From positions 1 to 23,035 of the IMG/VR virus record IMGVR_UViG_3300009130_000143: 23,035 bases of DNA; one strand, written 5' to 3'. Of the stretch, positions 2,207-16,604 are shown in pieces. Both the position numbers and the translations under genes were made by a program. The stretch's first letter is position 1, and every line of letters starts with the position of its first letter. The notes beneath the pieces were generated by a model. It was not told where the DNA came from, searched no databases, and saw nothing but the letters and a program-made list of their open reading frames with translations. This DNA comes from a virus.

Positions 2207-2632
2207 TTATGATACGCCGACCAACTCAACCTCAAAATTGAGGTCTTCCCCCGCCAAGGGATGATTGTGGTCCAGAGTAACAGTCTCGTCTTGAATCTCC
2301 GTAATGGTTGCCTGAAACGGCTGACCGTTCCCGCCAGTTCCGGTTACCACCGTTCCGACATTAAACTCAAAATCCTCTGGAAATGCCTGCTTTGGAACTG
2401 GAACAATTGCTTCGGGGTTTGGCGCTCCATATCCCTCTGCGATTGTGAAATTCTTCACCTCTCCAGTTTCCATCCCAACCACTGCGTTCTCAAAATCAGG
2501 AAGAAGTGCTCCTCCTCCCAATGTAAATTCTAGAGTTTCGCCGCGATCACGGGAGTTGTCAAACACTGTTCCATCATTCAAGGTTCCCTTGTAATGGACT
2601 TGGACTGTCTGTCCGCTCTCTGCCTTGCTCAT
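2207..2632 (-). CDS. SlyD-like FKBP peptidyl-prolyl cis-trans isomerase
   Basis: A 141-aa FKBP-type prolyl isomerase, predicted to be a cytoplasmic folding helper. The FKBP core starts with VQVHYKGTLNDGTVFDNS (about residues 10-27), continues with the flap region containing LGGGALLPDFENAVVGM (38-54), then an insert-in-flap chaperone domain at roughly 70-118, and ends with the SlyD-type closing motif DHNHPLAG at 121-128 followed by LNFEVELVGV. The His/Cys-rich metal-binding tail of cellular SlyD is absent and the protein stops directly after the FKBP fold. The start ATG has AAGGA 8 nt upstream. The gene lies between gp32 and uvsX with a near-identical 35-bp repeat on each side, suggesting a cassette acquired separately from its neighbours. 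Family membership is firm; the viral substrate is unknown. Confidence 0.95.
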   Translation of the reverse strand: MSKAESGQTVQVHYKGTLNDGTVFDNSRDRGETLEFTLGGGALLPDFENAVVGMETGEVKNFTIAEGYGAPNPEAIVPVPKQAFPEDFEFNVGTVVTGTGGNGQPFQATITEIQDETVTLDHNHPLAGEDLNFEVELVGVS

Positions 2633-11494: not shown

Positions 11495-14400
11495 TTATTT
11501 CTGAATATTTAATGGATACTGCTCTTTCGCAAGTGCCTGCTTCACAGACCTGCCAAGCTCTCGGTCATTGAGTTTCAACACGACCACTGTTTCACCAGCA
11601 TTTGCGCCAGCACCAGCAGCGGCTGGTTGTGCGGCATTTGCCGAGTTGATAGCCTCAACCAACTCCGTCAATTGAGTCATAGGTCCTTTAAACAACCAAC
11701 TAGACCAGCCAATGTCGCGAACAGCGTCTGCCACGTTGATCAAGTTTTCGCCTGTCTGCGGATTTATTTTGACTATCTCGGGAGTTGCTTCTGCCATGGC
11801 ATCCATAGACAAGTCAAAGGCTTCAAGGTGCGGAATTGACAATCTATTGACCGAGTACCCGAACCACCATAAAGAAGAGCCGACACTGCTCAAGGCATCA
11901 GCAAATATATAAAGCCCAAAAGATCTTAAAACCATCGTATCAAGAAGGGACACGAACCTCTCAAGCCCATCATTAAGGAATTGCAGAGGCTCTGTGAAAC
12001 TGACAGAAATATTTAATGTCTCTCGCAACGATTCATTGAACCCCGGCAAGTATGTGTTGCCAACATATGCTGCGTTTCCAACATCAACGAATGCGTTGCC
12101 CATTCTTCGCAAAGCCGGGGCGATCCCCTCGGCGTCAAGCCAAGTTTTCATTGACAACAGGGTCTTCATCAAAGATTTAACCTTTGGCACGGCTGAACTC
12201 ATCCCTTTTCCAGCAAATTCTGCGACCTTGCCCAAACCTTGCATCATATTTCCTAGAGCAACCAAGTCATCTGTTTTGATGAAGAATAGAGAAAACGCCA
12301 GTCCAACCAGACCCACTGCCATCGCAAGAAGACCTGCCATTGCGATGAAACCACCCGCACCGACGCCAATAGCACTAACGGCGAGCATCGCGAACCACTG
12401 GGCGAATGTGCCAAGTTGATCTGTATAAGGCAGCATTACAGCAAGACCTTCTGCAATTGCTGCGATTCCCCACGCAGCAACCCTGAATGCCAATGCCACG
12501 GCAAAAAACACCCCGGCGATGGCAACAAACGGTATCATCATTGTCATTGCCATCGTTCCTGCGGAGCCGAGGGCTATAATGACACCTATAAGCGTTGCGG
12601 CAAATACAAGCAATGCGAACGAAATAGCCATTATTTGCCCACCAGAAAAATCCTTAAAAGCCTTGACAAATTCAGCCACACCCAAAGCGGCAATCGCAAT
12701 TCCACCGCCAATCATCAGGGCAGCAGCCCCGAGACCCAGCAAGACGGGGACCGCTTGTCTCCCGTGCTTTGCAATATTTTTAAGTGCAGTTCCAAAAGAC
12801 TTGCCGCCCTTCTCTGCGCCCTTTCCGGCTTTGGCTGCGGACTCGCCTGCACCTCCGAGCGAATCGGTAAGCCACGATCCAGTCCAAATCGATTTAACAA
12901 ATGCTCCCACCTTGCCCAGTGTCCAAAAGGCACCCGCCATGGCTGCAACCGTAACCCAAGCATTTGTATTTTCTGCCAACAAGACAAACGGGGATAAAAG
13001 GAAATTTAATATCTCCAATACTGGGAGCGCTGCTTCCGCTAATGTCGCAAACGCTTTTGCAAAATTAGCCATCGGATCCTGCGCTTTTTTCGCCTCTTCC
13101 ATCAACTCTTCAATTGTCATCCCACTTTCTTCTGCCTTCTTTGCCATCCTCTCCATTTCAGCAGAACTGGTGTTGCCAAAGAATTTCATAGCATTGGACA
13201 TTTTTTCAAACCCAAAGGCTGCTTTCATTCTTTGTTTTTCTATCATGCTCATCGACTTGAACGACTTGCCACTTTGTTCAAATGCCTTCTTTTCCAACAT
13301 AATCCGCTCAGAATATGTGGCGTTCCTCATCTTGTTTGCATCAATGGCAGCATAGCCAAGAACAGTGTTAATTCTTGCTGCGCGAGCCATTGATCCCGAA
13401 ACAGTGTTATACTCTTCGATATTATCAATCAAACTGCCCATCTCCATCTTGAGGGCTTTTGACATACCTAATAGATTTTTAAATTCTCCGGTGGCGTTGT
13501 CTCCAAAAACTGCCAATCTGTCAAAGTTCTGATTTAACTCAGCAACAACTTGACCAACATTCATTTCAAGGGCGCGACCCAGACCAACCATATCTGCTGA
13601 CATCCCTTGGGCTTGCTGCTGGGTGTAGCCAAGCGTTGCCATAAAATGGTCCATCATCTGGCTATTTGCCTGTGCAGAGACTCCCATCTTTTCCATCGCC
13701 CCAGAGAAAACAGCAAAGCCCCCAACATCAGTTATGTCTGAAAAGGCTTTCATTTCGCCACGGGCAGTCGCAATGGCTTGTCCGGCATCATCCGCGCTAA
13801 GACCCATTTTTCTCATTTCAGAATTAGTGCCTGCCAGCACCTCATTATATTTTTCCCCTGCACCAGTGGCTTTCATCAATGAGTCTTGCGCTTTTGCCAG
13901 ACCAAATGCCATTTTTACAATTACAGCACCGATGCCAATGAACCCAGACATCAAAATGTTCTGAAGTGTGAACAGCGATGCCATAGCGGTGCCGACTGTC
14001 CCCAAGGCAACAGCAAGACCTTGAGTCTGCGCTAGAACGATCATCGATCCAATACCAGACGCTTTCCAACTTTCGCCAACGCCGGTCATCATGGTCAATG
14101 TAGTAGAGATGCTGCCTAAAGCCTTCTCCTGCTCTTGACGTGCTCGCTTGGCTCCATCAGCGATGGCTTCTTGATGATCTCTTTCTTGTCTCTTGCCCTC
14201 TATCAGACCTTCGGCGCTTTTCTCATGCGCTTGGGCAAACTTTAAAGCATCTTCTGCTGCTTTAACAGCCTCCTCGGCTTCTTTCCTCTGCGCGAGGGTG
14301 GCTGCGCCTTTGGCTTCAAGGACTTGCAAGTGCCTCTGTGCCGTATCTAGTTCGTCTTCTAGTTGTGCTTGATATTCTTCGAACTCGTAGGCAATCTTTG

Positions 14401-14545
14401 CCAATTTTTGCAGTTCTTCATCGGCAAGTTTGGCTCGGCGTTCGGCGATGAGTTCACGCGCCTCTTCAAGGGTATTAATTTCCCCAAGAGCCTGCTTTTG
14501 CTTAATTAGGCTCTGTTCTTTTGCCGTGTAATTATCATCAGCCAT
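11495..14545 (-). CDS. Tail tape measure protein
   Basis: A 1016-aa protein with tape-measure features: a long charged coiled coil at about residues 5-145, an Ala/Gly-rich segment at about 165-215, a long helical middle, and a cluster of very hydrophobic Ala/Gly/Ile/Val segments at roughly 605-760 that could insert into the host membrane during genome ejection. The C-terminus is compact and ends in a short globular stretch (VVLKLNDRELGRSVKQAL). It occupies the usual place after the tail chaperone region and before baseplate tube-cap and LysM genes, equivalent to T4 gp29 in role though longer. No lytic transglycosylase or peptidase motif was seen. The start is ATG with AGGGA upstream. Several long open frames on the opposite strand are by-products of its Ala-rich codon pattern. 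Confidence 0.9.
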   Translation of the reverse strand: MADDNYTAKEQSLIKQKQALGEINTLEEARELIAERRAKLADEELQKLAKIAYEFEEYQAQLEDELDTAQRHLQVLEAKGAATLAQRKEAEEAVKAAEDALKFAQAHEKSAEGLIEGKRQERDHQEAIADGAKRARQEQEKALGSISTTLTMMTGVGESWKASGIGSMIVLAQTQGLAVALGTVGTAMASLFTLQNILMSGFIGIGAVIVKMAFGLAKAQDSLMKATGAGEKYNEVLAGTNSEMRKMGLSADDAGQAIATARGEMKAFSDITDVGGFAVFSGAMEKMGVSAQANSQMMDHFMATLGYTQQQAQGMSADMVGLGRALEMNVGQVVAELNQNFDRLAVFGDNATGEFKNLLGMSKALKMEMGSLIDNIEEYNTVSGSMARAARINTVLGYAAIDANKMRNATYSERIMLEKKAFEQSGKSFKSMSMIEKQRMKAAFGFEKMSNAMKFFGNTSSAEMERMAKKAEESGMTIEELMEEAKKAQDPMANFAKAFATLAEAALPVLEILNFLLSPFVLLAENTNAWVTVAAMAGAFWTLGKVGAFVKSIWTGSWLTDSLGGAGESAAKAGKGAEKGGKSFGTALKNIAKHGRQAVPVLLGLGAAALMIGGGIAIAALGVAEFVKAFKDFSGGQIMAISFALLVFAATLIGVIIALGSAGTMAMTMMIPFVAIAGVFFAVALAFRVAAWGIAAIAEGLAVMLPYTDQLGTFAQWFAMLAVSAIGVGAGGFIAMAGLLAMAVGLVGLAFSLFFIKTDDLVALGNMMQGLGKVAEFAGKGMSSAVPKVKSLMKTLLSMKTWLDAEGIAPALRRMGNAFVDVGNAAYVGNTYLPGFNESLRETLNISVSFTEPLQFLNDGLERFVSLLDTMVLRSFGLYIFADALSSVGSSLWWFGYSVNRLSIPHLEAFDLSMDAMAEATPEIVKINPQTGENLINVADAVRDIGWSSWLFKGPMTQLTELVEAINSANAAQPAAAGAGANAGETVVVLKLNDRELGRSVKQALAKEQYPLNIQK

Positions 14546-14982: not shown

Positions 14983-15177
14983 TCATCTCCTGCGTGATGA
15001 TTTTTTTATTTTTTCCATCTCTTCATGCTCTTCGTCGAATTGTTTTTTAAGTCGGCGAACAAACCAATGGCGGATTTTAACCGGCAAGTTATATGCCTCA
15101 ATAAAACTCCATCCACCGTGATGTTTTAAAACAAATATCTGCTCATACACACTTTCAATGTATTCATCGCTTAGGCC
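14983..15177 (-). CDS. Chaperone-like ORF lacking a start codon, probably translated by frameshift from gp26
   Basis: A frame of about 64 codons overlaps the end of the gp26-like gene. It reads GLSDEYIESVYEQIFVLKHH, then GGWSFIEAYNLPVKIRHWFV, then RRLKKQFDEEHEEMEKIKK and a basic end. The pattern 'hydrophobic, GG-aromatic, AYNLPV.IR.W' is protein-like and resembles, from memory, small proteins found after gp26 in T4-like phages. There is no ATG in frame before its last tenth; the first GTG is 8 codons in and has no ribosome binding site. The upstream in-frame stop lies inside gp26, and between the two is a run of seven T. I infer synthesis as a C-terminal extension of gp26 by a +1 or -2 frameshift. 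The last few residues depend on my reading of a homopolymer near 15001, so the left end may be off by a base. Confidence 0.6.
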   Translation of the reverse strand, partial: GLSDEYIESVYEQIFVLKHHGGWSFIEAYNLPVKIRHWFVRRLKKQFDEEHEEMEKIKKSSRRR

Positions 15178-16018
15178 AAAAAAAGTCCGTTGTGAACGGA
15201 ACCTCCATCCTCATCTCAAATCCGCACTCGCCACATTCAAAGTGCTGGTTAAGGTTGACATTGGGCATCAACTGTTCATATGTAGCACGGAGGAAGCGTG
15301 CATCCTGCGCAGGCATTACATTAATAAATTTATTAATTGCTGATTTCTCAGCGCTGCCCTCTACGGACTTAATCATAAATTTAAGTTGTTCCGTTGCACC
15401 GGCTTCTGGTAGGTTGTTTTTCTTTCTTCGCTGGGCTGATTGAAGCAGCCACTTTTCGTCCTGCCCTGTCAGCAGCCCAAGACCTACTGTAACTCCGCTC
15501 TTGGGACATAAGACATCCCAAGTGCCAACACCAGTTGTCACTGCGCCTTCCGCGTCACCACCCGCATTAACCTCTTGCTCGTCCAAGTCGAACTCATACT
15601 CCTGAGTAGTAGAGCAAGCTGGGCAACTTACCTTTGTGACATATTCGCTGCCATAACCTGTAATACGTGCGGCAACAACCAAGGCATTTTTATCGCCAAT
15701 GAGCAAGCCGTCCAGTTTAATAGACTTGTCAACAATAATATTTTGCAACAGTCTGTCGACCGCGAGTCCCTTTTTAAGCAAAGACTTGGATGTTAAAATA
15801 TCCTCATCCTTCGCTGTCATGTAGCGAATCTCAACACTGTCCGCATTGTGCAAAGGATGGTCCTCGGGATAAAACGCACCTTTTGATGGTAGATCGACAA
15901 ATTCTGTTGGGGTTGTAAAGTCAAGTGCAGCGGTTGCTGCTTCTTCTGAAGTCGTAGAAGACGGCGGAGCGTCAGCCGACTTCCTTGCGCCGGAACGCTC
16001 CTCATTATTTCTAGCCAT
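15164..16018 (-). CDS. 26: gp26-like baseplate hub / tail assembly protein with split zinc ribbon
   Basis: A 284-aa protein that matches the T4 gp26 (T4_baseplate) family as I remember it: after a disordered acidic N-terminus (1-35) comes FVDLPSKGAFYPEDHPL (about 40-56) and SVEIRYMTAKDEDILTSKSL (61-80), the family signature. A zinc ribbon is formed by C132-x2-C135 and C262-x2-C265. It ends FFWPKR just past a run of seven T. In T4, gp26 helps assemble the baseplate hub. Its position between tail tube and tape measure is where siphophages encode the G/GT chaperones that bind the tape measure, which fits a chaperone role. The ATG start has AGAGGTG upstream, and a promoter lies 29 nt before it. 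Confidence 0.85.
   Translation of the reverse strand: MARNNEERSGARKSADAPPSSTTSEEAATAALDFTTPTEFVDLPSKGAFYPEDHPLHNADSVEIRYMTAKDEDILTSKSLLKKGLAVDRLLQNIIVDKSIKLDGLLIGDKNALVVAARITGYGSEYVTKVSCPACSTTQEYEFDLDEQEVNAGGDAEGAVTTGVGTWDVLCPKSGVTVGLGLLTGQDEKWLLQSAQRRKKNNLPEAGATEQLKFMIKSVEGSAEKSAINKFINVMPAQDARFLRATYEQLMPNVNLNQHFECGECGFEMRMEVPFTTDFFWPKR
15178..15184 (-). other. Candidate slippery site (seven T) for programmed frameshift
   Basis: On the minus strand the gp26 frame reads GAC TTT TTT TGG and terminates four codons later. A +1 slip, or a -2 slip on the T run, places ribosomes in the frame GGC CTA AGC GAT GAA of the downstream ORF. A -1 slip would meet TAA within five codons. Slippage on T runs is well known; its use here is inferred. 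Confidence 0.5.
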
Positions 16019-16097: not shown

Positions 16098-16604
16098 TTA
16101 GCCAAGGGTCGCAAAGTCGTAACGAAGCTCAAGTTCGATCTCGACCATATCATCCGACTCATAATCCAACTCGCCAAACTTAACGTCTTTAATCCAAGCA
16201 TTGTTAAGTGTCCAAGTCTCCATCACATTGCCGTTTGGGTGCAACTGGTGAATGTAAACTTCTCTTAAGCCTTCCTGAACAGACTTCTGTTTACTCATTG
16301 TGCCCTTAATGTCTGGACCATCAGGTACCGCGTAGCCAGAATTGCGGATCATTTCGAGCACCAAATCTGCACCATTGGGAGTCACGGAGTCAACCAATGT
16401 CATTGTCACAGTGTTCCACTCGACGCGACCGGGATAATAAAACTTATGATTCAAGTATGTGTGTGCTGTCTCTGTAACAGTAAAACTAGGTTTTGAAACT
16501 TTCTTTGCGATAAATTCTGCGGCACCGCCGAGTTTTACCGTCCATCGATATGCTCTCTTAGGTTCCGCACTTGGGTCAGACCAAAATTTCTCTTTTGTTG
16601 CCAT
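16098..16604 (-). CDS. 19: gp19-like tail tube protein
   Basis: A 168-aa protein, close in length to T4 gp19 (163 aa), the subunit of the inner tail tube. It shows the typical beta-rich pattern: YRWTVKLGG near the N-terminus (19-27), FTVTETAHTYLNHKFYYPGR (41-60), VEWNTVTMTLVDSV (61-74), a helix ADLVLEMIRNSGY (79-91), EVYIHQLHPNGNVMETWTL (about 115-133) and a closing NNAWIKDVKFGELDYESDDM. It directly follows the tail sheath gene, the order found in T4. The ATG start has AGGAG upstream. It is separated from the sheath gene by a strong GC-rich hairpin, which could help set the different expression of tube and sheath. Confidence 0.92.
   Translation of the reverse strand: MATKEKFWSDPSAEPKRAYRWTVKLGGAAEFIAKKVSKPSFTVTETAHTYLNHKFYYPGRVEWNTVTMTLVDSVTPNGADLVLEMIRNSGYAVPDGPDIKGTMSKQKSVQEGLREVYIHQLHPNGNVMETWTLNNAWIKDVKFGELDYESDDMVEIELELRYDFATLG

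Follow-up and report, generated by a model that had tools for sequence, protein, structure and literature searches.

We identified a gp26-like gene and a second, start-less reading frame in a virus genome that are very likely recoded into a single extended chaperone. In our best reading, the pair quite probably encodes a tail assembly chaperone of the G/GT type, with +1 ribosomal frameshifting producing the long form. The DNA analyzed (hereafter the window) was the whole 23,035-nucleotide stretch of a 23 kb virus record (IMG/VR IMGVR_UViG_3300009130_000143, positions 1 to 23,035), which carries a T4-related tail module on its minus strand. Both frames, the shift site, its codon choice and a hairpin signal beside it are conserved, and the proteins are homologous to T4 gp26 and, via cyanophage sequences, to T4 gp51.

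The module consists of a sheath-sized ORF, a gp19-type tail tube gene, the gp26-type gene, the start-less frame (ORF2), a small ORF and a probable tape measure gene of 1016 residues. Its main features are as follows.

16098 to 16604, minus strand: tail tube gene, directly upstream of the gp26-like gene (Pfam Phage_T4_gp19, E=4.7e-7; PHROG 4542, E=8.2e-25)
15164 to 16018, minus strand: gp26-like gene, 284 aa, putative short chaperone form (G or TAC-N) (Pfam T4_baseplate, E=1.2e-12)
15202 to 15206, minus strand: Shine-Dalgarno (SD)-like GGAGG, 17 nt upstream of the first UUU
15186 to 15200, minus strand: hairpin TCCGTT-CAC-AACGGA, 1 nt upstream of the T run
15176 to 15184, minus strand: predicted shift site UUU UUU UGG; all dereplicated +1 loci (53/53 and 40/40) have UUU and then a pyrimidine
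15164 to 15166, minus strand: zero-frame stop TGA of the gp26-like gene
14983 to 15210, minus strand: ORF2, stop-to-stop open frame, +1 relative to gp26
GGC at 15177 to the stop at 14985-14983, minus strand: predicted productive part of ORF2, 64 residues, three helices
14567 to 14908, minus strand: small ORF between ORF2 and the tape measure gene (context)
11495 to 14545, minus strand: probable tape measure gene, 1016 aa, from length and position

The gp26-like protein matched PHROG 150 'baseplate hub' (E=6.8e-16) and PF12322, the T4 gp26 family, with 48.5 bits, above the curated cut-off of 24.5. As originally predicted, the gene pair (14983-16018) lies between the tail tube gene and a large ORF; this order is kept in three relatives (L003, L006 and L007), in which the equivalent of the large ORF is annotated as tape measure. 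Neither the large ORF nor the small ORF had a family match of its own in Pfam or PHROG. A small ORF is also present at the matching place in Microcystis phage Mel-JY01 (L001, 4027-4242). Elsewhere in the window, an ORF at 2207-2632 (minus strand) resembles by eye an FKBP-type peptidyl-prolyl isomerase, which is unusual in a phage.

The +1 offset of ORF2

The gp26-like gene ends in GAC TTT TTT TGG CCT AAG CGA TGA, with a run of exactly seven T (T7; minus strand 15184 to 15178) in the overlap, in agreement with the original prediction. ORF2 is open from 15210 and overlaps the gene by 47 nt, about its last 16 codons, and not the 25 codons first proposed. Its offset is +1 (equal to -2), which confirms that a +1 or -2 slip joins the frames and a -1 slip does not.

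A scan of IMG/VR for close gp26 homologues yielded 80 loci, 79 of which had the gp26 end present (L012 runs off its contig). The +1 offset was found in 77 of these 79 best homologues, making 78 loci with the window, and in 80/80 loci of a second clade seeded by Flavobacterium phage immuto (immuto-type). Both clades together have the offset in 158 of 160 loci; the two exceptions, L015 and L016, represent one shared site from two samples in which ORF2 is in the -1 frame. The same +1 offset occurs in Mel-JY01, the huge uncultured phage LR756508, Bacillus phage SP-15, Listeria phage LIS04, Streptococcus phage GXN1 and Streptomyces phage GiJojo. ORF2 homology is weak in the last four phages (hmmsearch E 0.0011 to 1.8), so these cases rest largely on position and frame, and gp26 scans seeded with SP-15 and GXN1 gave almost no further relatives. 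The GiJojo region (L184, 2351-3458), a gp26-like gene followed by a +1 extension-like frame (CTG TTT CGC), is annotated as two hypothetical proteins.

The T run (FFGL...), and no start codon, marks where conservation of the ORF2 protein sets in. Differences between relatives at codon positions 1, 2 and 3 of ORF2 numbered 14860, 7543 and 28834, an excess at third positions that is expected if this frame is translated; judged by this pattern, ORF2 is evolving as a protein in its own frame. Searches of ORF2 against Pfam, PHROG and NCBIfam gave chance-level matches only, e.g., DUF6760 (E=0.014). Should the weak DUF6760 match be real, it could point to the same extension in other systems that resemble phage tails.

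Shift site, upstream hairpin and competing explanations

Dereplication at 90% identity left 93 +1 loci, 53 from the window clade and 40 of the immuto type. The site reads TTT TTT TGG (47 loci), TTC TTT TGG (4) or TTT CTT TGG (2) in the window clade, and TTT CTT TGG (20), TTT TTT TGG (17), TTT CTA TGG (2) or TTT CTT TAC (1) in the immuto type. A zero-frame UUU followed by U or C is present in 93/93 loci, and therefore tRNA-Phe can shift one base forward and pair fully. TTC was never the second codon of the site in the window clade, although it accounts for 26% of Phe codons elsewhere. The Asp codon before the T run is GAC in 38/38 cases, whereas GAT makes up 64% elsewhere, implying that the -1 heptamer U_UUU_UUU is avoided in the +1 clades. 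Similarly, T just before the run was found in 1/63 and 0/57 cases in the +1 clades versus 77/77 in the -1 clade described below. The controls for codons and for hairpins leave sequence relatedness in place.

Loci of the +1 clades carry a hairpin whose 3′ end lies 0-4 nt upstream of the shift site. The window helix is common to much of its clade and most of the rest have other registers; forms in relatives include TCTGCCG/CGGCAGA, TGTACC/GGTACA, GCCC-UUCG-GGGC and TGGAGGTA/TACCTCTG. The mean hairpin score in the window clade was 12.6, compared with 6.3 after synonymous redraws (z 15.6) and 10.3 when codons were permuted within columns and amino acids (z 6.9). For the immuto type, synonymous redraws and column-preserving codon permutation gave z 3.6 and 2.3, respectively. 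Covariation was modest in one fixed register, with 73% of cells paired and two pairs showing double changes. No downstream RNA structure was detected in the +1 clades (mean z 0.2 and -0.35). At codon -7, the window clade has a dip in mean anti-SD pairing, with GAG found 38 times versus 13.7 expected. The spacing of the window's GGAGG matches neither known +1 nor known -1 stimulation.

The exceptional L015/L016 site reads GAT TTT TTT TGG and lacks the upstream hairpin, which looks like a natural reversal of shift direction. It has been reported that, in synthetic constructs, a 5′ stem loop 4 nt upstream of a shift site lowers -1 and can raise +1 frameshifting (PMC5009743). By analogy, a 5′ hairpin favoring forward over backward movement is probably the mechanism here, and it is the one we prefer. 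In the case of the SARS coronavirus 5′ stem loop, the natural shift is -1, whereas the hairpin described here accompanies a natural +1 offset.

According to this mechanism, one gene would give two proteins common over 280 residues. Most ribosomes would stop at TGA and release the 284-residue gp26-like short form, and some, with tRNA-Phe on the P-site UUU, would slip +1 (UUU_U to UUU) and resume at GGC, the hairpin directly behind the site probably favoring forward over backward movement. The slipped ribosomes would produce a 344-residue form with the three-helix extension, with the predicted junction ...TTDFF followed by GLSDEYIESVYEQ.... Together, the two forms would serve as a tail assembly chaperone of the G/GT (TAC-N/TAC-NC) type; if lambda is a guide, the common part would hold the tape measure protein and the extension would recruit tail tube subunits. 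We infer the ribosomal +1 nature of the event, its efficiency and the hairpin action from the features above. Two observations count against a +1 shift: UGG in the A site is not a clearly slow codon, and the window site has no prfB-like SD at 3 nt.

The hairpin could instead act on transcription. In stem-loop-mediated slippage, RNA polymerase, pulled by the nascent hairpin, would drop one U of T7, leaving part of the mRNA with six U and in frame. A hairpin 0-4 nt before T7 does resemble an intrinsic terminator, T7 is kept in 46/53 dereplicated window-clade loci, and losing one base yields exactly the required frame. However, the offset is kept where the longest T run is only 3 or 4 (23/40 immuto-type and 6/53 window-clade loci, as well as GiJojo, GXN1 and LR756508), and strong hairpins are kept beside the interrupted runs TTTCTTT (L022, L063) and TTCTTTT (L056, L062, L081). 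The near-homopolymer tract that follows the hairpin, T7 in the window, is absent in 29/93 dereplicated +1 loci. Slippage of this kind is unlikely as the explanation for these genes, and possible at T7 loci such as the window.

Phage Mu uses a -2 slip, and the original prediction had left both +1 and -2 open. A -2 ribosomal slip would give the product DFFFGLSDEY, 345 aa; the window T7 lets UUU re-pair two bases back, and the GGAGG far upstream could pull the ribosome backward. Yet TTC TTT TGG, TTT CTA TGG, TTC TTT CGT and CTG TTT CGC keep the +1 offset and allow +1 but bar -2 re-pairing. Because these variants do not allow it, a -2 slip is disfavored for the group and we regard it as improbable; +1 fits every site variant, and on the sequence evidence a +1 ribosomal shift is the one mechanism that best accounts for the group as a whole.

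Another proposal, that ORF2 is a separate gene translated from an internal or non-standard start or by re-initiation at the gp26 stop, turns on its start codons. The claim that ORF2 has no usable start stood insofar as no ATG precedes its domain in the window and no start is conserved, but an in-frame GTG occurs 14 nt beyond the gp26 stop (15150-15148) and a single TTG is found within the domain. This GTG, the short ORF2 pieces annotated from internal starts in public records and an ATG at the gp26 stop in some -1-side relatives are in line with separate initiation. In 11 of the 93 dereplicated +1 loci, however, there is no ATG, GTG or TTG between the upstream stop and the ORF2 core (in L104, a stop codon lies two codons upstream of FFGL), and separate initiation would not account for the conservation of FFGL or for the codon tuning upstream of all possible starts. 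We consider this proposal slightly more improbable still. Sequencing error or a decayed gene fusion is hardly credible: homopolymer runs are error-prone, but both frames are conserved as protein and the reading is contradicted by homologues that share the offset, in dozens of independent contigs as well as isolate genomes. A simple fusion of the frames, which six T would have produced, was looked for and found in none of the window-clade and immuto-type loci.

The homologue alignment suggested in the original prediction therefore upholds it, in that the T run or another slip-prone site, the frame offset and the lack of a conserved start all hold. The upstream hairpin, the -1 version in cyanophage-type phages and the composition of T4 gp51, the last two described below, go beyond that prediction.

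Cyanophage-type and T4 counterparts

In cyanophage-type genomes, the same two proteins occur in tandem, joined at the same FF dipeptide. ORF2 ('gp51') directly follows gp26, in the -1 frame behind U_UUU_UUC in 79/79 loci. The second Phe codon is TTC in 70/70 dereplicated loci, whereas 73% of the Phe codons elsewhere are TTT (P ~2e-40 on the assumption of independent sites, a value that is too small given the relatedness of the sequences). An SD-like GAGGG is located 9 nt upstream (GAG in 69/77 versus 23 expected), and the downstream 60 nt are more stably folded than shuffled versions (mean z -2.2 versus -0.4 for the control). The upstream hairpin gave no signal in the same two controls used for the +1 clades (z -0.6 and 0.3). 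Thus, these sites differ from the window in the -1 offset, the classical heptamer, the SD-like GAGGG, the downstream structure and the absence of an upstream hairpin.

In several cyanophage-type genomes, among them those of isolates Syn19 and P-SSM7, the ORF2 core is not preceded by any start codon. 'gp51' is annotated with its own start in S-SSM7 (L180), Syn19 (L267) and P-SSM7 (L268). In the latter two, which lack any start codon ahead of the core, the annotated start lies within the conserved domain and the annotation is therefore probably wrong. T TTT TTC with a -1 frame was also found in RaK2, Serratia BF, Paride, Atu_ph07, PC-Liy1, Ah1 and ORM_20, in some of which separate ORF2 initiation is possible because an ATG is present at the gp26 stop. 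Vibrio phage K362 is without the heptamer and has an ATG.

T4 gp26 and gp51 belong to one Pfam family: gp51 residues 1-201 matched T4_baseplate, the gp26 family (E=3.9e-52). T4 gp26 ends at EFFELL, the point where the gp51 extension starts in the alignment and where the shift would occur here. In hhalign comparisons, whose pairwise E-values are for single comparisons, the fused window-type profile matched the fused cyanophage type with probability 97 across the junction, and the fused cyanophage type matched T4 gp51 with probability 99 (97.8 for the extension alone). The window-type extension did not match the T4 gp51 tail significantly when compared directly by hhalign; the link runs via cyanophage-type ORF2, with local probabilities of 78 and 97.8 for the two steps. 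The fused protein was collinear with PHROG 634 'baseplate hub assembly catalyst', but at a weak E=0.12. On the hhalign and Pfam matches, T4 gp51 is a gp26 paralogue plus an apparently related extension. Since the window-type profile connects to the cyanophage type and the cyanophage type to gp51, the two forms that these phages would make from a single gene seem to be encoded separately in T4, by genes that lie on opposite strands and involve no frameshift.

The gp26 part and the extension were folded separately with AlphaFold. The extension model (pLDDT 93; helices 4-21, 25-29 and 33-63) had no fold match. The gp26-like model (mean pLDDT 89) was compared with 994 solved chains and, after re-alignment, the best were YqbN (3klu, Z 5.5), which we take to be a member of the same chaperone group from a Bacillus prophage, a V. 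cholerae island protein (5ir0, Z 4.2) and, third, the HK97 tail assembly chaperone (2ob9, Z 4.1; Foldseek E 0.55). These scores are low and could reflect a common arrangement, and the likeness of the model to tail chaperones is suggestive only. We infer the chaperone function and roles from position, homology and this weak fold match.

Relation to known systems and implications

The arrangement resembles lambda G/GT and other TAC-N/TAC-NC systems, in which two overlapping frames between the tube and tape measure genes give a short form and a longer one with a C-terminal extension, the junction being close to the end of the first frame. The lambda G/GT frameshift is -1, whereas here it would be +1, the first protein is gp26-like and a hairpin lies directly upstream of the site. 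In bacterial prfB (CUU UGA C), the P-site tRNA also slips forward onto UUU, and some relatives here have CUU UGG C; however, a sense UGG and not a stop occupies the A site, and there is no SD at 3 nt. A chaperone frameshift in the same direction as in the window was described as very likely +1 for the haloarchaeal myovirus HSTV-2 (PMC5009743). The original prediction took the link between T4 gp26 and tail chaperones to be undescribed, which is out of date (cf. Vladimirov, Gautam and Davidson 2022): a passage of PMC12846349 cites Vladimirov et al. 2022 for poly-T -1 signals in T4-like TAC-N genes and so, going by that citation, the T4 link and possibly the -1 form are already known. We found no description of the +1 form, its hairpin or a direction switch.

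On balance, we lean toward the view that these genes form one homologous chaperone family with forward and backward recoding at the same Phe-Phe, in which codons and RNA signals are tuned to the direction. Forward sites would combine UUU_Y and the absence of a U ahead of the run with an adjoining 5′ hairpin that acts as a natural forward-shift stimulator, whereas backward sites would have U_UUU_UUC together with downstream structure and an SD-like element. In at least one lineage (L015/L016), the direction would have switched, with loss of the hairpin and gain of the U.

Under this reading, the G/GT chaperone scheme would also cover a large set of myoviruses, both cultured and uncultured, in which current annotation lists these genes as a baseplate hub protein and scattered hypothetical ORFs. 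Natural homologous sites that shift in opposite directions would make the question of frameshift direction directly testable and, in particular, open to test whether a hairpin behind the ribosome favors +1 movement.
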